Source: Leishmania infantum JPCM5
Taxonomy: Eukaryota > Euglenozoa > Kinetoplastea > Trypanosomatida > Trypanosomatidae
Assembly: GCF_000002875.2 (NCBI RefSeq)
Contig: NC_009398.2
Coordinates: 129,001-193,000, forward strand
Length of the DNA: 64,000 nt
Direction: 5' to 3'
Within the stretch, counting starts at the first letter, position 1. Each line of letters begins with the position of its first letter. Positions 30,098-59,064 of the stretch are shown in pieces. The notes under the pieces were generated by a model that was not told the origin of the DNA, ran no database searches, and saw nothing but the letters and a program-made list of their open reading frames with translations. The position numbers and the translations under genes are program-made.

Positions 30098-31657
30098 ATG
30101 CCCCGAACGGCGACCCACACGACGACGACGGCGCCGATGCCGACGCCACACGATACATTGCCGGCGGCAGATCACCACGACGATGACAAGTGTTGTTGTT
30201 GTTGCAAGAGTGAGATCCACATCGCGAAGCTCGAGGCGGAAAATCACCTCCTCAAGGAAAAGCTGTCGCAGATAGACATGATGCACGCGATCAGCGCCGC
30301 CAAAACCACCATCAACCGCACTATTCTGACGGCGCTGGAGGAGGAGCGGCAGTACCTGGAGCAGGCTATGCTTCCCGTCAGCTACAAGTTCCCGAAAGGA
30401 GCCGACTACAGCGAACTCCCCACCTACCCAAAGCGCCCGCACTTCGACCAGGCAGCGAAGCACCCCAGCACGCAGGTCGTCATCTTCGACGGCTGCCCCA
30501 ACGACCCTTATCACCCGACCTCGATGCCCATCTACCAAACCGCGACCTTTGTGCAGCCCGACATCGAGGAGTTCGGTCCGTACGACTACAGCCGTAGCGG
30601 CAACCCGACTCGCACGGCCATCGAGACCCTCGTCGCCAACCTCGAGGGTGCCCACGCTGCCTTCGCTTTTTCGTCCGGCATGGCGGCACTGCAGACGCTC
30701 GTGACCACGCTGAACGCTGGCGACACCATCCTCGCCAGCAGCGACCTTTACGGGGGCATGCACCGTCTCCTGACACAGATCACCTCGTGCCTCGGGATGG
30801 CTGTTGTGTTTGTGCCGATGTGGAACACTGAGGCGGTGCGCCAAGCGCTCATCGAGAACCCGGCGGCGAAGCTGCTGCACATGGAGAGCCCCACGAACCC
30901 ACTGATGCGAATTGTCGACATCCGTGCTGTCTGTGAGGCTGCCCACGCGCACAACGTAAAGGTGTCCATCGACAACACTATGATGTCTCCGCTTCGCTGC
31001 ACCCCGCTCGCCCTGGGCTGCGACTACTCAATCCACAGCGCCACCAAGTTTCTGTGCGGCCACAGCGACACCATGTGCGGTCTTATCTGCGTGAAGTCTG
31101 AGGAGGATGTGAAGCGGGTGGCCTTTCTGCAGAACGCACAGGGAAACGCCCTCGCCCCGTTTGACTGCTGGCTGCTCCTGCGTGGCATCCGCACGCTGTC
31201 CATTCGCGTCGAGAAGCAGGAGCTGAACGCCGTCGCGGTGGCATTGTTCCTGTCGCGTCAGAGCCACGTCGTGTCGCGCCTGCACTACGCTGGCTTGAAC
31301 CCCGCCACGTCCCCCCAGATCTCTTCCCTGACGGAGGAGAACTTCTACCTGCACCGCTCGCAGACCTCCGGCCCTGGCAGCGTGCTCTCCATTGAGACCG
31401 GCAGCGTCAAGCGCTCCAACGCGTTTGTACGGGCCTGCAAGCTGTTCAAGCTCACCGTCAGCTTTGGGAGCTGCAACTCGCTGGTTGAAATGCCCTGCCT
31501 CCTCTCGCACGCGTCCATACCAAAGGAGAAGCGCACACTTCCAGCTGACCTGATCCGACTGTCCGTGGGTATCGAACAGATCGAGGATATACTTGCCGAC
31601 CTAACGCAGGCCATCGCCGCCGCGGTCGCCATCCATGACAATGACGGGTCCTGCTGA
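30098..31657 (+). CDS. Cystathionine beta/gamma-lyase-like PLP enzyme
   Basis: 519 residues. Residues ~120-510 are a Cys/Met-metabolism PLP-dependent enzyme (fold type I): PIYQTATF, YDYSRSGNPTR, FSSGMAALQT, the PLP-phosphate and aromatic-stacking region around SSDLYGGMHR, MESPTNPLMRI, VSIDNTM, and the Schiff-base lysine K317 in HSATKFLCGHSD. The last segment is typical of cystathionine beta-lyases, but beta- and gamma-lyase activity cannot be separated by eye. The first ~115 residues are an extension not typical of the core enzyme: a His/Asp stretch, five consecutive cysteines (C32-C36) and a predicted short coiled coil (AKLEAENHLLKEKL). It is the last intact plus-strand gene before the convergent switch. 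Confidence 0.88.
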   Translation: MPRTATHTTTTAPMPTPHDTLPAADHHDDDKCCCCCKSEIHIAKLEAENHLLKEKLSQIDMMHAISAAKTTINRTILTALEEERQYLEQAMLPVSYKFPKGADYSELPTYPKRPHFDQAAKHPSTQVVIFDGCPNDPYHPTSMPIYQTATFVQPDIEEFGPYDYSRSGNPTRTAIETLVANLEGAHAAFAFSSGMAALQTLVTTLNAGDTILASSDLYGGMHRLLTQITSCLGMAVVFVPMWNTEAVRQALIENPAAKLLHMESPTNPLMRIVDIRAVCEAAHAHNVKVSIDNTMMSPLRCTPLALGCDYSIHSATKFLCGHSDTMCGLICVKSEEDVKRVAFLQNAQGNALAPFDCWLLLRGIRTLSIRVEKQELNAVAVALFLSRQSHVVSRLHYAGLNPATSPQISSLTEENFYLHRSQTSGPGSVLSIETGSVKRSNAFVRACKLFKLTVSFGSCNSLVEMPCLLSHASIPKEKRTLPADLIRLSVGIEQIEDILADLTQAIAAAVAIHDNDGSC

Positions 31658-32925: not shown

Positions 32926-33408
32926 CTCTGCCATGCAGCACGAGCTAAACTCCGCTTTAACCAACCCTCTACAAGTCTCTTACGTGCTGCGAAGCAGCGG
33001 CAGGCACGTCGCTACGGCTGTGCGCAGACAGTCATCTGAGCACAGCCCCTGCCTCAAGCCCCACCCACCACCAGCAGGGCAGTGTGGGGGCCGGGTGTGG
33101 GGTACGCTCGAGTCACGCCGACACGCTGCCCATCACATGGATGGCGCAAGCGTGTTCACGGCCGCGGGTCGCACCGACGCAGCGCCGTCCAGGACCTGGC
33201 CGCCGGCGTCAGTGGCGATGCATCGCTCTGACCTCCCCTACGGCGTCGGCGCTTGACCCTGTCACGACCGGAAGCGGCTCCGCATTGGGCAGGACTAGAG
33301 GGGGTGGGGTGCCGCTCCGCCTCCCCGCAGGGGGAGAGAGTGGGGGCACCGGGTCCCGAGATGCCACGCACTGTGTGCGGGTATGTTTGTGTCTACCGGT
33401 CATGAGGG
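32926..33408 (-). mobile_element. SIDER2-like retroposon, copy D (inverted)
   Basis: Minus-strand copy. Its 5' end (33408 side) shares cctcatgaccggta and the acatacccgcacacag stretch with copy A. It lacks the 88-base segment. At its 3' end it carries about 70 extra bases (cgcagcacgtaagagac through gctgcatggcagag) shared only with copy E. D and E therefore form an inverted pair with their 5' ends facing each other across 8.7 kb. Confidence 0.68.
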
Positions 33409-33921
33409 ACATCCGAGAAGTGACAATAATGGACGGTCGAGAGCACAACGGTCGTGTGAGTTATTGCCTCTTCTTCGTTGCTCTGTCGTGGACGAAATCG
33501 GGGTGCCCTTGCGCGGGACGGTGAAGCGGTCTTCTCCGCTGCCACCACCACCAAAAATAATGAGGCATGCGCGCAGTCATCAATGAGCGTGGAGAGGGAC
33601 AGGCAACGTCAGCTGGCATGGTCCGGTCGAAGTGAGGCTGATGCCGCTCAACAACTGGCCTCGGCAACGCATACATCCGTTGCCTCTACTCTCCAATCAC
33701 CATCTTCTGCACTTCCTCGTTTCGTCTCTCATCTGCTTCATCCTCATCCCGGCCTCTCTCAGCGCACGCACACTTTCACTTTGGGTGCAGTCACACACAC
33801 ACACGGGCATTCACAGATATCCCACAAGGTTGCCGCTCTTCTCGCTATCGTCGATAGACTCGCCCAGGCCCCGCGTGTGTGTTTGTTTTTCCGCTTGTGC
33901 CCGAGTCTCTCTGCCTTACTC
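33409..33921 (+). other. Upstream region of the glycosyltransferase pseudogene
   Basis: About 0.5 kb of mixed-composition DNA, pyrimidine-rich from 33660 to 33780, that could have been the leader and splice-acceptor region of the downstream gene. Confidence 0.5.
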
Positions 33922-35584
33922 ATGAAGGTAGTTTCAGCCTTTGCCCGGGCGGCGGTCCTGTCCCTACCGCTGCTGTTGCCGTTGTTCGTCGTGCTCGCGG
34001 CATGGGGAGCGCCCCTGTCTCAAGCTCAGGAAATGGACAAGGAAGAGAGTCCCGTGTCTCCGGTATAGTCTCAGTGCGCACGCCTTGGCATGTGGCCCCG
34101 TCGGTGCCATCCCTGTACCGTGCCGCCGGTGAGGCTCCGCGTCTGCACGTCGCCGTCATGAGCGTGCCGTTGCAGGGGCACTTCAAACAACTCTGAGCGC
34201 TTGCGGAGGAGATGGCCTGTCGAGGCCACAAAGTAGCATGCGTGTTGGAGCGGGCAGTGTGGTGTGAAACTCTACTGCGGCACAGCCAGCACACGGCGCC
34301 GCTTGTTCTCGCAAACATCAACGCAGCAGCGTATGCGAAGCCGATGTCAGAAGGCAACGGCCCGCTCGATGTTCAGGGTGTCGTCATTCCACCCTGCAAG
34401 GATGTGTTCACTGAGCGAGACTTTCATGCCATTACCAGTGAGAAAACCTCCACCATCATGTCCTTCCAGGTGCTCTTTGAGAACATATTCAAGCACCACA
34501 AGCTGGCGTTGCCAGACTACGCACTAGTGGCGCAGGCCGTGCATGCCGCTCTGCCTCTCACGATGCTTCTCTGCGACATCATCATCTACGCGTGCGCTGC
34601 CGTGGGCCTCAAGATGGGCTTTTCGGTGTTCAGCGTGTTTCCTTTCACCGCGCAAATGCCCGTCGGCCTGCAGGCAATGTTGCCAGCCGTGGGACTGGCC
34701 TTCCCGCGTCACGTGACCCTCCGCGCCCGCATCACCAACTTTGCCTTCCAATCCGCCGTCGCCGCCAACGGTGTTCCGCCGCTGCGGGACGTCGACGGCG
34801 TGGCGGGCATGTACGGCCCAATCATCGGTCCGATTGTGTCGGGACTCAGCATCCCTCCGCCCCTCAGCCCAAACATCCACCAGGTCGGTCCGCTGAAAAC
34901 CCGCGATCAGCGCCAACCCTACCGCTGACAGGACCTGCCGTTAGACCTCGCCGCTTTCATGGGCAGCTGCTCACAAGGCGTCGTCTACGTAAACTGGGGC
35001 ACCCTAAGCTTGCCAGACCCGGGGGTGGAGGATCGCCTGCAGGACGCGCTCGTTGAAGCCGCCCCGCTTAGCGTGGTGTGGAAGCGGCGCACCGCATCAG
35101 CAAGGCCACCGCCGCCGGCTGCTCGCTTCTACATGACGTCCTGGCTTCCGTCGACTGTAGCGGTTCTGAAGCACTCGAACACGCGCATGTTCCTCACGCA
35201 CTGCGGCGTCACTTCCCTGCTGGCGTCTGTCGAGGCGGTGGTACCGAACGTCGGCCTCCCACTCTTCGCCGGTCAAGCGGATGCTTGCCAGCGCGTCGAG
35301 GAGGTCGGCATCCGACTTCCATCCAGCGAAACGAAAGCCTTCACCCGCGCCGGCGTTGTCGCCGTCATTGCGGCTGTCACTGAAAACCACAGCACCCCAT
35401 GGTGCGGCAGCTGCGGAAACTGCGCGCCATCGCCACCGCATACGGCGGCCCACAGCGCGCTGCTGACATTATCGAAGGTCGTCAGTACAACTTGCTCATC
35501 GGAACACAACACTCCGGCGCGTGCGCGAGCTTATCGGTTCCGCTGCAAATCGAGTACGCCCTCGCCGCGTGGTCGGCGGCTTAG
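33922..35584 (+). pseudogene. Decayed UDP-glycosyltransferase (GT1/UGT-like)
   Basis: The start is a good signal peptide (MKVVSAFARAAVLSLPLLLP, ending near SQAQ). Frame then shifts near 34060. The next segment includes LHVAVMSVPLQGHFKQL, the N-terminal UGT motif, and is cut by a TGA at 34194-34196. The frame resumes through ALAEEMACRGHKVACVLE to a second TGA at 34926-34928. It continues with VVYVNWGTL and FLTHCGVTSLLASVEAV then GLPLFAGQADACQRVE, the UGT signature with its HCG and Q. A last shift near 35395 moves to a frame ending at 35584 (LRAIATAYGGPQRAADI). Two stops plus two shifts make a functional product unlikely. The original protein was probably ER-targeted and about 550 residues. Confidence 0.82.
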
Positions 35585-35750
35585 GTGGTTGGTATGGGTG
35601 TGCGTGCCCCGTCGTTTGCGCGGGCGGTGCCTTCCGATCCCCGCGGTGTGGTCGATGCTCTGGCGCACGACTCGCCCTGCGAAAGCCAAACGCGGCGAAG
35701 ACGCAGCGCCGTCGCGCGCACACGTGGCCGCACAGGGCGCATAAGCACCT

Positions 35751-38700
35751 ATGGGGCGCCAAGGGGGCGCTTCGAGGAACGCCCGGCCACCCGCCTCGGG
35801 GGCCCGCCAGAACCACGCGAGCGCGCCCTCGGCGTTTGGGCCTAGTTTCGCGCGCGGCACTAAGGCCCCGTCCAAGCCCAAACGAGGCGCCCCCCCCCCA
35901 CCCCAACCCAAACCCACACCCCGGCAAGAGCCAAAAGCGGGAAGCGGCGCCAAGCGCGACCCTTGCCGGCACCCGAAAGGCGAAAAAAAGGGAGGGAAAG
36001 CGGCAGGCCCGTGCCCAAGCGGCCAAGCCCCCACCAACCAAACCCCGGCCGGCGGGCCCCCGCAAAGCGGAGACGCCCCAGACGCGGCACACCCAAACCC
36101 CCAGTTTGGCGGCCGCCGCAAAATCCCGCCAACCAGAGCAGCGAACCCCACAACAAAAAAAAAAACAGCCGAAGGACAGCAGCGTGTCGTTTTCTGCCCT
36201 TCAAACATGAAGTTTTCACCCGCAACCACCAGCACAGCAGGCAGGAATCGCGCCCCCTTCCTAGAGCAAAAGAATTTTGAACTACGTGGAAAAAAAAACA
36301 CTGCTTTCGGAAAGGCCCTTCTTCATAAGAGCTGCAACCGCCACCGTAACAATTCTATCCCGTTTACAAAAGCCGGAAAACAGTGTGAATCAAAGGTGCG
36401 GACAAAGGAAAGCGACACGGTTTTCAAGAGGAAACCACACGCGCCCCCGCAGCCCTACGCTAGCAAAGAAGGCGCCAACGCCGAAACGAAGACAAATCCC
36501 ATCCGCAAGGCGCAAAACTCTTTTAGACATGCCGGAGGGAAATGGAAGGAAGCATTTTTTGCGCAAAGCATGTCCGCATACTATGAAAAAGCAGTCGAAC
36601 CCTCCCCTCCCCCCCCCCGCGGTAGGCAGCAAACCGACAAACGGGACCCCGCACCAGCGCCGCGGAAGGTCCCGCCCACACGCCGCCAGCCACCCCAGAA
36701 GAGGCCTTTTCGCGGAGCAGCCACGAGCACCTTTCCGAAAGTCACGGGCGAATCCCAGGCTTGCGGCCTTTTGTTTGCGCCTGACCAAGCGGTAAAGAGG
36801 CACAAAGCACCAACAACGCAAACCCAAGGAGCCCCGCCACGACGCCGCGCCACGGCCATAAAACACGCCGGCTGTTTCGCATAACCCCGGCCCCCGCGGG
36901 GTCGCGATAAGAGGTTCGGGGGGAGCGCGGCGCTTCTAGGTGAGAGGGGCTGCCTTGATCCAGCTGAAAAGAAAGCCCGCCCGGCCGCTTTGCATTCCAG
37001 GAAAAAAGGGACACAAAGAGGGGTCCGCGATAGGCGCCGCTAAAAAACGGAAACGGGGGAAAGCGCGGCCCACCAAAAACGCGGTGGAGGGACGCAGGTC
37101 AGCCCAAGCGAGGATTTGCACAACCCACAAAAGCCGCAAACCCTCGCGCCTCCGCCGGCCAACGCGGGCAAAGCCCTTACAAAAGAATTTGAAAAAGCCA
37201 CCGGCACCGAAATCCGAAAAACGCCTGCGACCCATCAACGGCGCCGGGCTTTCGCGGCTTCAAAAACAAAACCGGCCACCCACAAAACAAGGGATGCCGC
37301 TTTCTGCGATTGCGCTTTGTTTCGCGGAGACGCCTGGGTACTTACGCCCCCCCGAAAAAAAAACCCAATTGGCCGCCTTTTCGGCCGACAGATAAAAACG
37401 GCGGTGTGGCCGAAGTGCCCCTGCCATCGGCTTTTCGGGCTTTCCGGATGCCCGGGCGGGTTCCGGGTTTTGCGTGCTTTCGGGGCGGCGGCGGCGCAGG
37501 GCCCCCTTTCACCCCGGGGCCGAAAGGCCAAGGGCTTCGCGGGGCTGTGGCGAAAGAAGCCGGCGCTTTCCGGGCCGCAAGGACGGCTTAAGGCAGCAGC
37601 CGCGCCAGCCTCCGCGTTTTCAAACGCTGCCGCACCCCGCCGGCCACAGGATTAAAGCGGGGTTATGAAAACCAAGTTTTCCGCAAGCCCGCCGTTGCGG
37701 CAAAATATTATTCGACACGTTCCGGCGATCCCCAAAAGAAAAAAAAAAGGTGGCCCGGCGATGCCGCGCGGCCCCGCGCATCCTTTTAGGAAATGCTTTT
37801 CGCGCCCTGTGCCCGTTTGGTTTTTTTTTTGCCTCTCCGGGGACTCCTTGGTGCTGTGCGGGGTTTTGGGGGCGGCGGGTTCCCTTGGGGGCTGGGCGCG
37901 TGGGCGGCGGTTTCCCCGCCCCCGGGGCCGCCGCCCCCGCGCTGGCGAGGCGGCTTTCCCTTTTCCAAAGCCCCACCATTTCGCCAAACCGACGGCCAAC
38001 AAAAGGCCAGCAGACCCCACTTTTGAACGCCCCCCAGCCCAGAGGCGCCTTTTTTCGTTTTGCCGCCGCCCGGCTTTTTCTTCTGGCCATGTTTTTCTGG
38101 AGAAGGTGGCCGGGGGCCAGGGGGATACTTTTCCCGCCGCCCCGCCCAGGCCAAAGCCGAAACCATACGATTAGGCCCGGCGCCCTGAGCCCCATGAAAG
38201 GACACGCGCCGAGCCGCGAGAAATTTTATGGGCAGGCACAGGCTGGGCCTTTTGTCCGAAAAAGTTTTGGGGCCGGTGCTCTGTTTGCTGCGTCTTCGCC
38301 CTCGCCCGCCCACGGGCCAGCGGGCAGCCCCACGACCACCCCAAAACAGGGCCACCCCAACCCCCCCGCCCGCCCACCGCAAAAAAAAGGGATAGCAGCC
38401 GCGCCCTGCCCTTTATCCTTGCCAAAAAAACGGGCCACCACACCACAGCCGACAAAAGAATCGGAACTTTTCTTGAGGAGGAGGGCGGAAACCAAAGAAA
38501 AAGTGCGCCGACAGACATTCGACAGCGCCCGCTCTTCAGAGAGGCGTTTTAGTGCCACAGAGGTTCGGCGGTTTGAAAGCCATCGTCTAATGCGAAAGAC
38601 CTTTCGCGCCCATCAGCTACCATTCCCGAAACGTGACCTGCACAGCGCAAAGAAAATCGCGGGCGCCCTCATTATTTTATCTCTTAAGGGGGGTTCGCTT

Positions 38701-41700
38701 CTAGGTCTTTTGGTGGCGCCGCAGCGGGTCGGCAAAGGCAAAGCCAGGTTCCGGGCGCTGCGCCCCCACAAAAAAATGTCTGGCGGGCGGTGCGGCGCCG
38801 AGGGGGGGCTTGCGGGGGCCCCGCCCGCGCCCTTTTCTTTGCCGCCCGCCCCCGCCTTACCGCGCCCCCCAAAAAAAAGCCCGCGGCCCCCCGCGCGTTT
38901 TTTTTAAAAAGGCCCCACCGCACGTGGGCACTGATAGGCCCGCTCTCAAGGGGCTGCCGAGGGGGCTCTTTTTCGTGTTTTAGGGCCCGCGTTTTTACAC
39001 CGGCGGCCATCCTATCTTTTTTTTTGTTCCGGCATCGCCCGCCGGCTTATCCGGGTGCGCGCGGCTTTGCTCGCAAAAAAAAAATCCTCGACAAGGCCTT
39101 TGCGCCCACGCTCTTGTCCATTTGTTTGCGCGGCCGCTCTTCACCCCGGCTTGCCTGCTTGCCGGCTTTCCTCTACTTGACTAAACTGGGGCCGTTTACC
39201 TTCCCGCCACCGTTCCCGGTTTCTTTTTCGGCTCGTGGCTTTCTTTTTCGATACTCTGTCGACGGCGTTGGCGCCGCGCAACGGGTGCCCGTCCCCGGCA
39301 CCCTAAGGCGGAGGCAAAAACATTCCCAGCGGCAGCCCCACCCTTTCGGCCGGATGAAGGGGTCACTTTTCGGAAAAAGGGCGCCGCTTGTCTAACCCGT
39401 CTTCCTCCACCGCCCGCCCCTGGCCCCCAATGGCCGCGGAAAGGGCACCGGCGCGACCCGAACGTACCCCACACTCGGCCCACACGCTGCCCTGCTGGTG
39501 GTGGAAAGCCGCCGCTACCCCGGGGGGGGGGGATGCTGCACGCGGCTGCCCGCGCAAGGGGTGGGGGTGCTGTGGGGCAGCCCGCGGGGCGGGTGGTGGG
39601 CGGGGTCTGAGGCAGGAGCTGCGCCCAGACGGCCGTGTTAGCACACAGCCGTAGCAACGCGCCCGGGGTTTGTGCCAAAGCGCCGTGCGCCAGTTTCGGT
39701 TTAACGCAGGCGGAAAAGCAGAGATGCAGGGTCAGAATGCGTCTTTTTTGGGGGTATTTTTTGGTTATGTGGGCGGCTCTTCGGAATTGGTTGCGCGGTG
39801 ATCTGTCGGATTGTTTTTTGGGGGTTCGGCGGATGTTGCTGGCCGCTTCGTGTGGGGTAATTTCTGAGGTGACGCCGCGCAGGCCTCGGTTCAGAGAAAA
39901 TGTGCTTTGGCTAGTGTTGTGGGTTTGCCGCTGGGTCGGGCTGCGGTGTTTTTTGTTGAGGCCCGGCGCGCCAAAAGGGGTGCTTCCTTGTGTTTTCGTT
40001 TTTCCCGTCGGGGGTGGGTAACGCTTCGCGCTGGCGGGGTCGTCGAAGTGGCCTTGGGCGTGGGTTTGTTGGTGGGTGCTGCTGTTTTAGGGTGTGGCGT
40101 GCTCTTTTGCGAGCGCGGGTTGTCCATGCTGGCTGGTAAAAGGCAAAGGGTTTCGGTTGGCCTTTCCAAGGGTTTTGCAAGCGGGTCTGCAGCATATGCT
40201 TGGCAGGCGCGCGGTGCAGCAGTTGTGCTGCGCTTGGGCTTTGTGTGCTTTTCGGCGCGTCTTTTAGAATATTCGAAACCAAACTTATCATTCTGTGTTT
40301 TCCGGTTTTCCCCTTGTTCTTTTTATGGCCGCATTTCGCCTTTCGTGGTGCCCCCTTGTTGGTGCGTGTTTGGGGCCGCGCTCGAAAGTTTTGCAAGACC
40401 CAATAATTTGCCTCAGCTCTTAGATGCGGCGTCGGGCAACGGCTTTTAAGTTTTCAATGGGGCGGCGAAACTGGTCGTGCGTCTTGGAAATTTGTTTCGT
40501 TGGCCATGGGCTGGGGCTTATCCCCTTGGTGGTTTTGTTTTCTGTTGGTGCTGGTTCTCGGCCGGTTCTTGGTTGGTCTTTTGTGTCCTCTTGCTGCCCG
40601 TTTTGTCGTTGGGTGCTTCCCGTTGCGTTCCTTATGGGGCTTCACTCTGGCGCGCCTTCTTCCTTTTTCGACCCTTTTTTCCCTGTTTTTGCGCTTTCCG
40701 CGATCCTCTCTTAATGGCCGGGCGGAGCCGCCATCTCTTCCGTGTGCGGGCGCCGTGTGCTTCTATTCTGCGCCGTCCCTTTCCTTTCCTTGTCGGCATC
40801 GTTTTATTCCCTGGGCGCATTTTCTTTGACGAGGGCGAACGGCGCGCGCGCGCCGCGCTTTTTGTAAAACGTCGGCTTTGTTGGCCTCTTGTTATCCTGG
40901 TTTTGTCGCGCTTAAAAAAACATTTTGTTTCTCGCTTTGGTCCGTTTTGTCTCTGTGGGGGTGGCGCTCCCTTGCCCAAATGCTTTCCTTCGCTGCTTGC
41001 GCGCCTTTCCGTCATTTTTTACGCGGGTGTTTTGTGCCGGCGCCCCTCTGTGTGTGTGTTTTCTCTCTGCGTTCCTGGGGCGGCTGCTTCCGCCATGCTG
41101 TCCGGCAGCCTTTTTGTTTTCGGGCCTTGTGCTTTGCGCCCGGTTCGCTCTTATCGGCCCCGGTGTTTTCCCTTCCTTCCTTGTCTTTCCTTTGTGCCTT
41201 CAGCGGGGGGTGGGCATCGCTGTGGGGTCTTCGTGCCATTTGCGCCTTTCTTGTATTCGCCAGTGCCCTTTCTCACCGCCATGTTTGCGCTTTCTCTTGC
41301 CTGAGTGCCTCTCGCTTGTTCTTTCAGTCTCTTCATCGCCGCGTGGTCCGCCAAGCCGGTTCTCTGTCTTTTGTGCCCTCTTCGGTGCTAGGCGCTTCCG
41401 CGTGTGCGTTGTGTTGGCGTTTTGTTGCGTGGTCGTCTCGTTGCCCCTTGTGTATGCAGGTTGGGGGGTTTTCCTTGCCTGGGTGCGTGCTTTTCGGTGC
41501 GCCGCCTCTTCCTTGGTGTGCGTTTGCTTTCCCCAACGCCAGGTTGGTATGCGTGCGCGCGTTGAAAACGCGCCGGGGCGGCGGGGCGCGTCTGCGGGCG
41601 TTTTGCCCTTACCAATGCCAGGCCGCAAGAGGGGCGGGCGGCAAGACATGAAAACGCCCGGTGCCGCGCGCGGCTGGGCTCGGTTTCCGGCCTGGCGGGG

Positions 41701-42128
41701 CGCGGGCTGCGCGTTTGGCGGCTTTCGTCGTGTGTCTTTCCGCTTTGGCGGCCGCGGGCGTGGTGCCCCGGCGCCGCCCCCTTTGGGCGGCCCGCATCCT
41801 TTTGGTTGGGTTTCCCCGGGGCGGGGCCCCCTCCAAGAGCCGGCGAGGGGCCTGGCGGGCCCCGGGAGGGTGGCGTTCGTTTTCGCGAGCGGAAAGGCGC
41901 CGGCGGGGCCGCGGAGGGAGCTGGTTTGGGGTGGGAGGGGGGGGGTGAGGGTTTCCGTCGCAGTCCACGGTGGCGTCGGTGCGAGGGGTCTTGGAGACTC
42001 TCGCGTCACGGGTGTCACTCTCTGTGTAGCGGCGTGCCCGTGGAGCGCGCCTGCTTCTCCGCGCGGCTTTGCGTCATGCAAACGTTTTTTTTTTAAATGG
42101 TAAACTCTGGTGGAAAGGGAAACCCCGG
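35751..42128. other. 6.4 kb block of extreme, mirror-image base composition
   Basis: From about 35.75 to 37.3 kb the plus strand is almost free of T: I count 7 T in 35881-36180. From about 39.7 to 42.1 kb it is almost free of A: I count 12 A in 40501-40800. The centre (about 37.4-39.4 kb) is mixed and very GC-rich. Homopolymers of 7-11 A, T, C or G are frequent. Stop codons need T and A, so long open frames appear on both strands (35751-36884, 37750-38907, 40925-42103, 41200-42081 minus); their translations are low-complexity and not protein-like. No gene or RNA recognised apart from the old element F. Confidence 0.8.
39440..39690 (+). mobile_element. Degenerate SIDER2-like relic, copy F
   Basis: Clear but diverged match to copy A from cgaacgtaccccacac through ctgccctgctggtggtgg, gcgggtggtggg and cacacagccgtagcaacg to ggtttgtgccaaag. 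It keeps a diverged form of the 88-base segment that B-E lack, so it belongs to the older, undeleted form. Both transitions and transversions separate it from copy A. Confidence 0.6.
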
Positions 42129-42562
42129 CATGGCATCAGGGTCCGGTACTCCCTCGGTGTGGGGAAGCCAAGCGGCACCCCACCCCCTCTAGTCCTGCCC
42201 AATGCGGAGCCGCTTCCGGTCGTGACAGGGTCAAGCGCCGACGCCGTAGGGGAGGTCAGAGCGATGCATCGCCACTGACGCCGGCGGCCAGGCCCTGGAC
42301 GGCGCTGCGTCGGTGCGACCCGCGGCCGTGAACACGCTTGCGCCATCCATGTGATGGGCAGCGTGTCGGCGTGACTCGAGCGTACCCCACACCCGGCCCC
42401 CACACTGCCCTGCTGGTGGTGGGTGGGGCTTGAGGCAGGGGCTGTGCTCAGATGACTGTGTCTGCGCACAGCCGTAGCGACGTGCCTGCCGCTGCTTCGC
42501 AGCACGTAAGAGACTTGTAGAGGGTTGGTTAAAGCGGAGTTTAGCTCGTGCTGCATGGCAGA
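42129..42562 (+). mobile_element. SIDER2-like retroposon, copy E
   Basis: Plus-strand copy, near-identical to copies B and C from agcggcaccccacccc (about 42171) to the gctgcttc end. A diverged first ~40 bases (42129-42170) match the consensus only loosely. It carries the same extra 3' segment as copy D, ending gctgcatggcagag. It lacks the 88-base segment. It sits at the right edge of the abnormal-composition block. Confidence 0.68.
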
Positions 42563-44957
42563 GACCGGACACCTTGACAGAAAAAACTTAAGAGTGGCGA
42601 AGCGCGATGAGGGCTTTCTTGAACAGCAGAGGCGAAGTGTTGCTAGGAGCAGGGGCAGAGAGAGGTCACTCGACACGCGCCCTCACAGGCGTGTCAGCAA
42701 CCCCCTCTTCGGAGCAGCTCAAGAGCGGAAGCCACTGCTTTGCTTCCTGCACCGTGTGCACTGGTGTGTCCATACCACTGTGTATCCCCCTAGTGGGGAG
42801 GGGGGGGGGAGGTACGTAACACGTTTTTTGTGCGTGTGTCTGCGAACACGGGTGAGTTGCTTGCGTGGTGCCGTCCTTCGTTGTTCGTCAGCGCCTTTCT
42901 TTCTCTCTTCACGGAAAGAACGAAGCGTACACGCGCACCAAATCAACAACAACAGCGAGGGAGGCGTCTCGCAAGCTACTTTGGGGCTTTTCATCTCGGT
43001 CACCGTCCTCGCCGAGGGTGTGCTACAGTGGTGGATCCGAGTATGCCCACACGCGTACGTATGCATATGTATCTTCTGCGTGGTAGGAGATGGGAGGGGG
43101 CACGGGCAAGGAGGAAGTGGTGGGGTGGTTCACCCGACAAACTGCCGTTGGCGCGCACCACAGTCTCTCTCCCTACACCCGGGGGAGCCCAATGCATTGC
43201 CTGCACGTGCAGCTCGACACGGAGGTGCGCCGCCAAGAAGGAAAGCGACGATGACGACAGTGGAGGAGGACATACGCGCGCCGCGCCAAAGCCATTGCCA
43301 CCACTGCCGTCAGGAACATGCATGCGCGGTGCTAGGAATCAGTCGCATGGTTTTTGTGACCAGTGCGTGCGTGGTGAGTCGGTGGGGATGATGGTGGCAG
43401 CAGCGCCACACCCGTATGCGAAGTGGACCGTCGTTCGTGATTTGCGTTGCATGTCCTCTGTACCCAACAAGGAAACGCCTGGCTTTTCACCCGCACTCGA
43501 GCGAGAGAGAAGCTCAACAACGCCAACACAACATCCCGCCTCCCCCCCACTCCACACACACACACACTCGAAACGTTCGCTCCAGCTTTGCTCTTCCGTC
43601 TCACTCCCTCACCTTTTTTTTTCTGCAGATCCAAGAAACGGAAAAACAGAAACTAATCAACCAACCAACCAACCCCCCCCCAAAAAAAAAACAGCGCTTC
43701 AGCTGAACGCACATGTTTTGTTTATGTAGCACGTGAACCCATCAACAAACAACAACGAAACAAACAACAAAAAACGAAAAAAGATCGCGGTAAACAGCAC
43801 AAAACACGGGGGAAGCGAAAAGAAAGCCATCGGGAGGAGACGTACACAAACAACAAACAATGCGCGTGCGTGTGCGATACGGGGCAAACAGTGAACACAC
43901 AGCGCCGAACATCCTCCCCTTCTCGTCGTCGACGCCCCTCGGTACCATCTACGACCATCACCATCCGCTCCCCTTTATGGGACTCGCGAAGGCCAAGAGG
44001 CAAACACACCAGAAGAGGAAGACACAGTTAAAAACGTAAACACGTGAGAATAAAAAGCGCTGCTATCAGCACCCCCTTTTCGGCAGTGGTGATGGTTCGG
44101 ATCACCATGGAGGCAGCCTGGCCCCCTTTTCGTTCAACAGAGAAGAGTTGAGTGAGCGAGCGTACGCAACACATGCTCACACGCGCAGCGATGCGTGGGG
44201 TCTTCCTCCTCGAGTACTGCTGATGCCGCCTCTCCTCCTTTCTCACGAGCGCGGAGCTTGATGGCCATCTCCACACGGAAGAAACACCAATCAAGAGCCG
44301 AATTGGCAACACAAGAAGTGGATACGCGCTTGTGAGGCGCCTCAGGACCTCTTCTTCCCTTCTTATTCTCACACAAACCACGGGAAACAATAACCAAAAA
44401 AAACACGAAAGGGTGAGGGGCTTGGCAGCTGCGTGATTGTGGTACAAAGGCGAGCGGGAGATTATAGAGGTGGGGGAAGAAAAAAAAAGAAAGCGGCCAA
44501 CAAACTAAGGCAAAAACAAGAGACTTCTGGGGGGGGGGACACAACAGACATTGCGGCTGCGAGGTTCAGAGTGTTATAAGAAGCGGAAAGGGACAAGAAA
44601 GAAATACAGGAGCAGCGAGGCAAGGAGAGAGAGGTGGAGACAAGCGAACATCACAGACAGGCAAAGAAGGAGGAAGACGCTTTTGGCGGGTCATTGAGCT
44701 ACAAGAGGGAAAAAGGGGAGACAGAGGACAGACAGAGGTGCCCGAGGGGAGAACAAAAACAGAGTACCTGTCGTGCGTAGGCGAAGACAGGGACCCCAAC
44801 TCACGCCCGACGTTGAAAGCTGCGAGGGCAAGCCGGGCTTCTAGCGCGAGGCATTGCCCCACCTTTCTTTCCGTCCCTTCTCAAGTCCTTGCCAAAAAAA
44901 AATAAAAAGCGCTGAACATGCTGCTCGTCTCTCTCTCTGTGTGCCCGTAGCTCTCGC
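42563..44957. other. Non-coding right part of the strand-switch region
   Basis: Mixed composition to about 43.6 kb, then purine-rich on the plus strand, as expected for the 3' flank of a minus-strand gene. A weak plus-strand open frame (42830-43729) contains one coding-like patch near 43215-43300 (KKESDDDDSGGG) but is otherwise low complexity. I do not call a gene. Confidence 0.5.
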
Positions 44958-45782
44958 TTACTCCTGCGAGAGCTCCCTGTTGATCTGCTTCTGCTCAGCC
45001 ACCAGCGACTTCATGCGATTCTCGAACATGCGCGTGTACACCGCGGTGAAGGTGAACTGGAAGCCTTGCAGGGCGAAGGCGGTCATGATCAGGGCGAAGG
45101 ACGAAGAGAAGTCGCAGTAGTCCTTCACGCGCACCTTGCGGCCGACGATGGTGCTGTTCATGGTTTCCATGCTGCGAGCGTACACACCAACGCTGAGGGC
45201 CCAGGAGATGAGGATGATGATCCACACGGAGAAGGACCACGCGCACAGCACGGCCGTGAAGTCCTGCATGCACACAACGATGGTGATGCCGATGATGTTG
45301 ATGAAGGAGTAGCATGAAGCCAGTACGGCGAACGCGGCCGCACCGAGCATCATGGTGTAGGTCACCGACGACGGGAAGCCCTTGTTCTTGATACCATGCT
45401 CCGTGTACCACTTCTCTGTGTGAAAGGTGGAAGTGCCGCACTTGCGCGCACCCCACAGCGAGTAGCAGAACGGCTTCGAGCCCTCGGTGACCGACACACC
45501 AAGGCCGGCGCTCACGGCCTTCAGGTCGGCGCCGATCCTGATGGCCCTGGTGCCGTCGACCATGAAGACATCCGTGGCGGCGGCGGCGATGAGCAGCACG
45601 AAGGTGATCACCTGCATCGTCGCGGCGAGGGCGATGAGCACGCGCTCCCGGCAGGGGATGTAGAGAACCGTGCGGCCACCGATCTTCGACTTGCGGCGGT
45701 GCAGCGAGGATGGGCGGCGAGAGGTGCGGAGGGAGCTGATCTCCGTCAAGGGCTCGCAGTTCGCGTTGGTGCCGGTCCGCAT
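44958..45782 (-). CDS. Amastin-like surface protein, copy 1
   Basis: 274 residues on the minus strand. An N-terminal Ser/Arg-rich cytoplasmic segment (1-45) precedes four hydrophobic segments (about 48-70, 142-166, 170-200 and 218-240), the tetraspan amastin topology. The extracellular loop contains CYSLWGARKCG (106-116), close to the amastin signature C-x-[TS]-[LF]-W-G-x-[KRQ]-x-x-C but one residue shorter. Amastins are kinetoplastid surface glycoproteins, often stage-regulated through long 3' UTRs. The last 7-8 residues (INRELSQE) differ from copy 2. The gene is the last of the minus-strand unit and terminates into the strand-switch region. Confidence 0.9.
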   Translation of the reverse strand: MRTGTNANCEPLTEISSLRTSRRPSSLHRRKSKIGGRTVLYIPCRERVLIALAATMQVITFVLLIAAAATDVFMVDGTRAIRIGADLKAVSAGLGVSVTEGSKPFCYSLWGARKCGTSTFHTEKWYTEHGIKNKGFPSSVTYTMMLGAAAFAVLASCYSFINIIGITIVVCMQDFTAVLCAWSFSVWIIILISWALSVGVYARSMETMNSTIVGRKVRVKDYCDFSSSFALIMTAFALQGFQFTFTAVYTRMFENRMKSLVAEQKQINRELSQE

Positions 45783-55720: not shown

Positions 55721-57754
55721 TCAGCAGACACTCCTCAAGGCTTCCCCGCTCTCTGCCGCTTGTAAATCTGCCAAATATTTCTTCCTCTCGGCCAAAATCC
55801 GCTCACCGCGTTGCAGCTGCGCATCGAGTTCTCGTGCGATCGGGCCATACGTGTCACAGTACTCTTGTGCTGCTTTCAGTTTTGCCTGCAGCTGTGCCAG
55901 CTCGCGGTCACCCGTCTTCAAGACCTGGCGAAGGTGCTCCACATGTGAAGAGGTATGCGTCGCGGCAGCACTGCTTTCGCCGCACATGGAGGCGCAACCA
56001 TTTGAGTGCGTTCGCCGATTGGGCGTTTCTGCACAGGTTGTCGTGCTAAGTCCGCTCCGCTCAGTCGCCCCGGCGGCCGCCGTGGCTGAGGAGACGGCGG
56101 CGGACGAGTCGGCCAACAGACTCATATCCGCACTGCTGTTGGGGGCATTTGTGGAGGAGCAGCATTGAATGCCGTCAGTGATGAGCTGCAGCTTGCGCTT
56201 GTACTTGTCAAACATATGAACAGACGCGCTCAGAGCTGCGTCCTCTTCATCTGTTAGCCCTTGCAGGGTGCGTGGCCAGGCAAAGTCAACCACGGGCTCG
56301 CTTGTCCGTCCATCCAGCAATTCATGCAGTGCCGTCTCCGACTTCTTCAGCGATGCTTCTTCTGCGGCAACTTCCTCGATCAGCTCAGCTAGCCGAGACA
56401 GACGTTGCTGCAGCGCCAGTTTTTGTGACCGGTACGAGTCCACCGTCTCCATTTCTTCTGCCACGAGGAGACGCAGCTTTTCTACCATGTACAGGTCCGG
56501 CGCCTGGAGGCCTTGTGTGGCCGCGTCGTCGTGGCTGCTGCGCCTCGGCTCGAGCGGCCGCGGAGGATCTGCGTCGGTGCTGCGTGCGCGGAACACGGCG
56601 GGCGCGCTCGATTCCCCTAATTCGCACCTGCTGCTGATGGCGGTGAAATCGTGTCCATTGGAGGGCTGCGATTTCTGCGGCTCGCCTACGGCGTCCGCCG
56701 ACGCTTCGTGCTCCAGTTCAGTCTGAAGAGCTTCCACTTTCTCTAGCAGCCCCGCAACACGCTCATGCTCGCGATCGACAGCTGCCAGCAGATTCGGCGA
56801 GTCTGGGGAGCGGCAAGAGGAAGCGCAGGAGCCAACTGCGTTTGCGTGACGTCCATCCTGCTGCAGCTTTTCCAATTTGACCTGCGCTTCCGTGCACGCT
56901 ACTTGCAGGCGTGGCGCAAGGTCGTCCGTCAGCCAGTGCAGCTCCGCACGCACACGTGCTTCTTCCTTCATGAGTCGACGCTTCTCGTCCTTCTCAGAGC
57001 AGTTCCTGTCACTGGCCGTTTCTGTGACGCGAGCCGCACGTGGGGATGCGATGGCGGTATCCGTGGTGTGTGGCTCTCCATGTGTCGACATTATCGCGGA
57101 TGAGGCATCACAAAAGGCGCTCAGACGCTCTTGCAGGCTTGACTGCCGCCGTCCCTGCAGTGGAAGCGCATGCGCGACCTCGTCATCCTCGTCCACCATG
57201 TCACGCGACCGAGGTCCACTCTTGGCACTCGCGGTTTGCGTCGGTCTGACCCCTTCCGCTCCACGCAATGTTGCCTTCTCGCTCGCCTCCAAAGTGCCGT
57301 GGTGGCCGTGGCGAGTGGCGGTGGGGGTTTTCAGCGATGAGGAGCCGTGTAAACGATCACTGCGCATAGCAACCGCCGCGGGGTCGAGACGCGCAGAAAA
57401 AAGCGCGCCAGGCACGCGCCGCAGCAGGGAACCAGGGACAAGCCCGATAGCCCCATCTTCTCCTTGTGCGATACACCACTGCGGCTGCGATAGAGCTGCA
57501 CCACCGGCGGCAGCTGCTAGCATGTGTGAGGAGGCACCATGTGGACCTGTGCCGTGATGACACTCTCGCCGTAGCACGCGTACCCGTCCTCCTTGTTGGA
57601 GAGATAGGTACAAAGGCTCTGCGTGGGGTTCCTCATCGCCAGCGGCGCCACTCTCGCAGGCAGAGGAGCGGTGGGCTGTGGACGGCGAAGAGTGCGCGAC
57701 CGAGAAAGGAATTACCGCTTGCTCGAGCCCGCGGACTTTCACACACTGATGCAT
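55721..57754 (-). CDS. SH3-like and coiled-coil protein of unknown function
   Basis: 677 residues from MHQCVKVRGLEQAVIPF; an in-frame ATG at 57841 would add 29 hydrophobic residues that look like leader sequence. Residues ~11-114 read as an SH3 domain split by a Ser/Ala/Gly-rich insertion: an AVIPFSV strand, LYLSLQQGGRVRVL, then PQWCIAQGEDGAIGLVPGSLL, which fits the W...G..GLVP..Y/L pattern. Three or more coiled-coil segments follow (about 265-320, 340-370, 440-500 and 605-660), separated by Ser-rich linkers. This suggests a scaffold, perhaps cytoskeletal or flagellar. Family not recognised. It is minus-strand, between the desaturase and amastin copy 2. Confidence 0.75.
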   Translation of the reverse strand: MHQCVKVRGLEQAVIPFSVAHSSPSTAHRSSACESGAAGDEEPHAEPLYLSLQQGGRVRVLRRECHHGTGPHGASSHMLAAAAGGAALSQPQWCIAQGEDGAIGLVPGSLLRRVPGALFSARLDPAAVAMRSDRLHGSSSLKTPTATRHGHHGTLEASEKATLRGAEGVRPTQTASAKSGPRSRDMVDEDDEVAHALPLQGRRQSSLQERLSAFCDASSAIMSTHGEPHTTDTAIASPRAARVTETASDRNCSEKDEKRRLMKEEARVRAELHWLTDDLAPRLQVACTEAQVKLEKLQQDGRHANAVGSCASSCRSPDSPNLLAAVDREHERVAGLLEKVEALQTELEHEASADAVGEPQKSQPSNGHDFTAISSRCELGESSAPAVFRARSTDADPPRPLEPRRSSHDDAATQGLQAPDLYMVEKLRLLVAEEMETVDSYRSQKLALQQRLSRLAELIEEVAAEEASLKKSETALHELLDGRTSEPVVDFAWPRTLQGLTDEEDAALSASVHMFDKYKRKLQLITDGIQCCSSTNAPNSSADMSLLADSSAAVSSATAAAGATERSGLSTTTCAETPNRRTHSNGCASMCGESSAAATHTSSHVEHLRQVLKTGDRELAQLQAKLKAAQEYCDTYGPIARELDAQLQRGERILAERKKYLADLQAAESGEALRSVC

Positions 57755-59064
57755 CGCAGTGAGGATAAAGGAAAAACGAGTAGAGAACACGAAAAGGAAG
57801 CGATAGGCGAGGGGAGAGTAGGGAGAAGGTGTGTGCTTCACCTATGATGAATGATCGACAGTGGGTTTGACGTACGCATGTCCGCGCAAGCAACGAGAGA
57901 TTTAGTTGTCGTCTCAACAACAAGAGGAATTTCCCCCACCAAAAAAAAGTGAGTGTGCCACGCACGCGCCTACGGTGCAGTCATCTTCGCACACGAAAAA
58001 GACGATCCATGGAGATAGAGAGCGGAAGAGGGGGAGGGGGGAGTTGATCGAATGGATGTTGCGCAGGGGGATGATTGAACGTGGGGAGGGGAGCGCTTGA
58101 CGGCTCCACCACTTTCACCCCTTCACCTTCCATCTTCGAACCTATTCGGTTCCACTCCGCTGTCCACGCCACACCCAGGAAGCGGGAGCGAGACAGAGAA
58201 CCGGCGCTGGCGCTTCGTATGGACATGGCCATTCGCGGACTCGAGCAACGCCAGACCGCACGCTGTCGTCTCCGTGAGACCTTTGGTTTCCTTTCGTGCG
58301 TCCTTGTGCGGTGCGACTCATGACGCACCTCTTTTTTGTTTCTCGCATACCGAGAAGAGAGGGAAGGAGGGGCAGCAGAGAAAGGGTGCGTGGGATAGTC
58401 GTAGTATTCCTCGTAGCAGCAGTGATAAAGCCTGTCTCTGCCTGTGTGTGTGTGTGTGTATACATGATAGCGGCGCAGTTTTACAGCCAACAAAAACACA
58501 CACACACACACACACACAGGCAGAGTAGACATCACATCAGATTAAAAAAACAAAACGGCACGCATGAGCGATGACTGCAGCAGCAACACCGACAAGGACA
58601 CCACCGCCACCATCACAGCAGCGCTTGAGTTCGTCCTGTACTGAGTGCGTGTTGAAAAAAAAAAAGAACACAGATCGCTGCGCCAGCACCGAGATTCGTT
58701 ACCCTTGTTATTTTCTTGTCCAGCGAGCTCGCCGTGGGAAAGAGATGGGGGAAAGAGGCAAGAGAGGAATATGCAGAAAGAATTGCGCGAGATGGACGGA
58801 AAAAAAACGAAAACCAGTTTTGAATAAAGGAAAGCGAGAGAGAGAAAGGAGTAGATAACAACAATCAGAAACGAAGGAGAATACATGAACAACGTGAACA
58901 GGCTAGTAGCACAGATGAGCACATGAGAAAAAAAGGAGCACCGAGTAACTTGGGGAGTTGAGCAGGATGTGCGTACTTGTGACACTAAAGTGCAAGCTCT
59001 CCTTGGATCCCACAGGCCACACCCACCAAAAAGAAAAACGAATCCTCACAGCAGAGAATCATGC

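Follow-up and report, generated by a model that had tools for sequence, protein, structure and literature searches.

At the boundary of two multigene transcription units on chromosome 14 of the Leishmania donovani complex, a block of DNA fills the convergent strand-switch region, and its plus strand is nearly devoid of T in places on the left and of A in places on the right. The question raised by this locus is whether such a bias was generated by replication, by transcription, by the two processes acting together, or by faulty sequencing. The block lies in the window, by which we mean the whole stretch of 64 kb analyzed here (C14:129001-193000, C14 being chromosome 14), and positions given without a chromosome are those of the window. 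It was compared with 263 of the 639 kb of the chromosome (C14:1-263000, window included), where 5,307 letters are N; windows with N were left out, leaving 258 kb of non-N sequence for comparison, and copies were sought in an assembly of 32.07 Mb in 75 contigs. From this analysis we lean towards the view that the block is where replication starts in the interior of chromosome 14, and that it is probably the centromere as well.

Composition and gene context of the block

The skew in the block is real. The original prediction had reported 7 T in 300 bases of the plus strand at 35881-36180 and 12 A in 300 at 40501-40800, and both counts are exact on recount (A92 C124 G77 T7 and A12 C89 G81 T118, respectively). 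The former region is the most T-poor 300-mer in C14:1-263000, the next one holding 16 T, and the four most A-poor 300-mers of the same sequence, with 10, 11, 13, and 14 A, all lie in the right arm. With limits chosen after the profile had been seen, the block consists of a left arm (35851-37350) that holds the 7-T window and has a T-poor, C/A-rich plus strand (T 0.113, A 0.286; T skew -0.43, G skew -0.14), a centre (37351-39600) that carries the polarity switch and is richest in homopolymers (T skew +0.06, G skew -0.06), and a right arm (39601-42128) with an A-poor, T/G-rich plus strand (A 0.092, T 0.312; T skew +0.54, G skew +0.12). The skewed block had been placed correctly at the switch, except that the skew starts near 35850 and not at 35751. 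Its mirror symmetry stands as a matter of composition only: no long inverted match between the arms was found, and on this ground an inverted duplication of the arms was rejected.

The T and G skews both change sign at about 38.9 kb, being negative before it and positive after it; the walks reach their minima at 38656 for T-A, 38923 for keto-amino, and 39492 for G-C. When keto-amino skew (G+T minus A+C) was contrasted between the 3 kb on either side of a position, with skew peaks at N stretches left out of the ranking, the maximum was 0.387 at 38949 and the next peak in the 263 kb was 0.177; the block also ranks first with 1.5-kb and 5-kb sides, and nowhere else in the 258 kb compared is the skew as extreme. 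In G-skew contrast alone, the block (0.213) is second to C14:140932 (0.233; 3-kb sides, gap edge left out), and G skew is near zero (+0.01) at 40684-41795, the segment of the right arm that is shared with chromosome 10 (C10). Relative to 2,751 1.5-kb and 2,691 2.5-kb overlapping windows outside the block on C14 and C10, keto-amino skew falls below the minimum in the left arm (about -0.26 versus -0.217) and rises above the maximum in the right arm (about +0.29 versus +0.122). The T skew of the left arm taken alone is not unique (-0.432 versus an outside minimum of -0.433), because polypyrimidine tracts also give such values; as an account of the block, ordinary polypyrimidine tracts were rejected, since the T skew that they give elsewhere comes mostly with a purine/pyrimidine bias. 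No tandem repeats were reported at 33000-45000.

Gene direction was judged from ATG open reading frames (ORFs) of at least 350 aa in C14:1-263000, one ORF within the block being left out. Left of the block 32 of 36 such ORFs are on the plus strand, and right of it 12 of 14 are on the minus strand, in agreement with the earlier claim that transcription enters from the left on plus and from the right on minus. The gap between the nearest Pfam-supported ORFs is about 9.2 kb, this switch being the only one measured in the genome. The left unit includes a Cys/Met-metabolism PLP enzyme (30098-31657, plus; PF01053, E 2.6e-117), and its last ORF with a Pfam match encodes the C-terminal part of a UDP-glycosyltransferase (34959-35744, plus; PF00201, profile positions 272-409 of 499). 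This frame, which adjoins the switch, is open for the C-terminal part only, and the reading frame suggests that the gene may be broken or frame-shifted. On the right, the first ORF with a Pfam match is amastin-like (44958-45782, minus; PF07344, E 4.6e-6; 27.0 versus 27.2 bits, just below the curated cut-off), and further into the unit lies a relative of L. major LMJF_14_0500 (55721-57841, minus; 86% over 78%), matched by an L. donovani protein with 99% identity over 85% of the query; from these matches the window is assigned to chromosome 14 of an L. donovani-complex genome. In the literature searched, no paper on six genes of the 14.0480-14.0500 region was found.

The nine ORFs of at least 250 aa tested in or beside the block showed neither a Pfam match nor a retroelement domain, and the largest one in the left arm, of 377 aa, had no relative among 7,991 scored candidates; coding sequence was rejected as the cause of the skew on these grounds. 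T-poor or A-poor DNA is without stop codons on one strand, and long ORFs are therefore to be expected in it. The 64-kb window contains no tRNA genes and no Rfam matches at gathering score.

Elsewhere on the chromosome, family matches are on the minus strand only at 213 kb, on the minus strand at 337 and 349 kb, and on the plus strand from 462 kb, and chromosome 14 has at least one further, divergent, switch between about 349 and 462 kb, which could be the centromere. The attempt to assign the centromere to the block by elimination failed on account of this other switch. Plus-strand ORFs at C14:257779 and 260894 had been considered as a divergent switch and were dropped, as both overlap minus-strand ORFs. 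The region C14:234000-263000 carries a run of minus-strand ORFs, mostly of 220-300 aa, which by position resembles the fatty-acid elongase cluster of chromosome 14.

The transcribed flanks differ from the block in one respect. In them, the RNA-like strand has a slight excess of T (T skew +0.05 across 160 kb left of the block and +0.12 to +0.14 right of it), and the T skew of the block is opposite in sign. G skew, in contrast, has the same signs in the flanks (-0.07 left, +0.06 right) as in the block. A strict G3 scan found two G4 motifs on the reverse strand of the left arm (35890-35922 and 36600-36618; none on the forward strand at 35751-37349) and two on the forward strand of the right arm (41847-41870 and 41928-41951; none on the reverse strand at 39601-42128), so that forward/reverse counts are 0/2 in the left arm, 2/1 in the centre, and 2/0 in the right arm, versus 8/12 in the left and 5/2 in the right flank; with a relaxed motif, the flanks lean the same way as the arms. 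Because the flanks show the same signs and strand lean, G skew and G4 strand are weak evidence and not diagnostic at the block, and T skew is therefore the only feature that separates the block from transcription-linked skew at this convergent site. The coding strand is slightly T-rich and C-rich both in the left plus unit (159,750 bases) and in C14:174000-256700. For L. major coding strands, the opposite sign is stated (PMC7511235).

Related copies and the substitutions they record

The segment 40684-41795 has a second copy at C10:289038-290185 with 87-88% identity. The alignment has 1,160 columns, 1,014 of them identical, with 86 substitutions, of which 65 are transitions, and 10 indels; in a reverse search of the assembly, which like all our copy searches skips common words, the segment was found at these two places only. 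On chromosome 10, A-poverty continues on either side of the shared segment, with T skews of +0.49 and +0.24. The gap concerned (C10:285-291 kb) is bounded left and right by minus-strand ORFs. T skew is +0.46 in its right part, the side from which transcription comes, and the left part is almost neutral, with a T skew of -0.02 and a G skew of -0.06; strict G4 motifs are mixed, with one forward and one reverse in each of the left part and the right arm. The one-sided A-poor, T/G-rich arm, C10:288501-291359, is bordered by two minus-strand genes, one for an endonuclease (PF01223) and one for an ABC1 kinase (PF03109).

This copy bears directly on the idea that the block is a sequencing or assembly artefact arising from low coverage or from modified T, the latter entertained in the original prediction. 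Such an artefact would suit the many homopolymers of the block, with runs of at least four bases at 36-53 per kb versus 13-17 in the flanks, and the lack of a database relative for the largest left-arm ORF among the candidates scored. We nevertheless regard it as very improbable, because 1.16 kb recurs on another chromosome and differs mainly by transitions, which is ordinary divergence and not basecalling noise; furthermore, the A-poverty on chromosome 10 extends beyond the shared segment, and the block itself contains a recognizable repeat copy.

Homopolymers, too, extend beyond the block, which also counts against an artefact. The ratio of adjacent identical bases to expectation is 1.53 in the centre versus a mean of 0.88 for 1-kb windows of the C14 sequence read; it reaches 1.62 in the block, where the top 13 of 1,016 overlapping C14 windows all lie. 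The gap left of the C10 arm (C10:284900-288700) is also homopolymer-rich, with a ratio of 1.29, and values of 0.73-1.12 are found in six further intergenic stretches of the window, some of these ordinary stretches holding equally many very long runs. The excess may be a general mark of non-coding, untranscribed switch DNA. In the literature searched, no published head-on, mutational-bias, or homopolymer account of such a block was found.

The repeat copy within the block (39449-39663, plus, 215 bp) is a diverged member of an intergenic repeat of chromosome 14, 78% identical to copies at C14:134008, 112695, and 108145 and 77% to a partial match at 100976. Two further copies flank the block in inverted orientation, at 33019-33338 (minus) and 42149-42468 (plus), and form 96% complementary arms of 320 nt. 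All intergenic repeat matches obtained in one search, including those of C14:100976-141005, lie between 100 and 172 kb of the chromosome. With the other copies taken as ancestral, the internal copy has 41 changes, among them 10 T>C, 9 A>G, 7 G>A, and 4 C>T, a spectrum in which strand asymmetry is not clear; after 21 of the 41 changes the base matched a neighbour, as 10 of the 41 ancestral bases had done.

The differences between the C14 and C10 copies, on the other hand, suggest an excess of A-G change on the T/G-rich strand. The A-G share of transitions is 21/65 versus 17.6% expected (p 0.003), and A-G exchangeability is 2.23 times that of C-T under a reversible stationary model (bootstrap 1.30-3.74). 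Arithmetic on the base frequencies of the pair, assuming a stationary reversible process, implies that on this strand A>G exceeds T>C by a factor of about 2.3 and C>T exceeds G>A by one of about 2.2, the latter ratio coming mostly from the base frequencies; the asymmetry rests on 65 transitions, 29 of them in CpG contexts, plus the assumption of stationarity. Both inequalities are what deamination of A and C in the single-stranded state would produce.

Replication and transcription as possible sources of the skew

Deamination of A and C in single-stranded DNA is established for other genomes, and we infer that it operates here at an origin with centromere function. Forks would leave the centre, at about 38.5-39.5 kb, in both directions, and the T/G-rich strand on each side, with the leading-strand sequence, would be the parental template of the lagging strand, which each fork would expose as a single strand. 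A>G and C>T changes on the exposed template would enrich the leading-strand sequence in T and G and deplete its complement, which here is the RNA-like strand, of T; with little selected sequence and repeated initiation, the bias could reach an extreme.

Several observations are in favor of an origin. T and G skew are negative on the left and positive on the right, in the same direction as at the early-S loci described for L. major (PMC7511235), and the keto-amino switch is the strongest in 263 kb at three window sizes. A strand-specific process at a convergent Leishmania switch had been proposed for this locus and is supported, and among the causes named for it, a centromere or replication-linked skew is the best supported, given the double skew switch and a T skew opposite to that of the flanks. 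Counted against an origin are the GC content of the block, 61% versus the AT-rich composition usual in published centromeres and initiation sites, the further divergent switch on chromosome 14, and the internal repeat copy with its unclear asymmetry. Moreover, only the right arm is strong at the C10 locus, the left one being all but absent, whereas a symmetrical origin predicts otherwise; a termination effect would predict such a one-sided arm, as would an origin whose head-on side is hit harder.

Transcription termination could act without any origin, if polymerases entered a terminating zone rich in base J and the RNA-like strand lost T there, for instance, as we hypothesize, by mispairing of oxidized T. 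Both C14 arms indeed lie where transcription comes in, and in both the RNA-like strand is T-poor; the C10 genes are on the minus strand on both sides, and the sole strong arm there is on the incoming side. T>C changes of the RNA-like strand also agree with the A-G excess on the other strand. On the other side, deamination of an exposed non-template strand should, we reason, enrich the RNA-like strand in T, contrary to observation. In L. major, as reported, neither J-only sites nor sites with acetylated H3 (AcH3) and base J show a related skew change, which argues against base J as the cause, a candidate named in the original prediction, and the early-S skew switch appears irrespective of transcription direction, even on a chromosome transcribed one way throughout (PMC7511235). 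Overall, termination on its own is an unlikely but serious explanation. The notion of a process tied to transcription thus fared unevenly: the slightly T-rich RNA-like strand of the flanks runs counter to it, and a transcription contribution stays alive because the strong C10 arm is found only on the incoming side. Termination or head-on conflict may contribute to the skew.

The two processes could also be combined, the polarity coming from an origin and the bias being amplified where outgoing forks and incoming polymerases meet head-on, which would leave strong arms only on head-on sides. The convergent C14 locus with its two strong arms, and the head-to-tail C10 locus with one strong arm on the head-on side and a near-neutral co-directional side, agree with this combination; it is nonetheless doubtful, resting on two loci that have 1.16 kb of sequence in common, of which C10:285-291 kb is a putative origin, and facing a pattern described in L. 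major as independent of transcription direction (PMC7511235). In a related and likewise rather improbable scenario, the skew would be a record of head-on conflict beside an origin: the fork would meet terminating polymerases, the lagging template would stay single-stranded for long, A and C would deaminate, and the RNA-like strand would lose almost all its T, but only on head-on sides. If so, convergent centromeres should have two strong arms, head-to-tail ones one, and divergent ones none, and both loci fit.

Should the block be an origin and centromere, base composition alone may point to a Leishmania replication-initiation or centromere locus without ChIP. The extreme arms and the partial copy would then provide natural sequence pairs from which to read how the mutation spectrum differs between strands at a eukaryotic origin, and the same pairs would allow one to ask whether head-on transcription worsens the bias.

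Comparison with known initiation loci and centromeres

With 0.613 GC versus 0.589 in the window, the block is not AT-rich, AT-richness being usual in published descriptions and not absolute. The T. cruzi switch centromere resembles the block as GC-rich DNA in a switch region. That centromere is made largely of retroelements (PMC1805754), in contrast to the block, where retroelement domains are absent from the nine ORFs mentioned above. In L. tarentolae, 6 of 36 centromeres are convergent, one of three known arrangements and the same as that of the block, yet the centromeres there are mostly called AT-rich (PMC9413968), as are initiation sites (PMC12890776). More mutation is reported at origin-linked switches in L. 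major (PMC12890776, PMC7360064).

In L. major, a single early origin per chromosome has been described, located at large switches, with origin switches longer than others and 5 of 36 origins convergent (Marques et al. 2015, PMC4612428), with which the long convergent gap of the block may be comparable. Closest are the L. major loci, one per chromosome, where AcH3, base J, and the kinetochore protein KKT1 coincide and replication starts early (Damasceno et al. 2020, PMC7511235). These loci share with the block a position at a transcription-unit boundary, a local switch of G and T skew from negative to positive, seen in a meta-analysis of early-S MFA-seq loci, and, at six of them, a convergent arrangement; G4s there lie on the reverse strand before and on the forward strand after, an order that the few motifs in the arms of the block follow. 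The block differs in being known from its sequence alone and in another species, and its G skew and G4 strand also match its own ordinary flanks. Taken together, the block is probably a further member, and an extreme one, of these L. major-type skew-switch loci.
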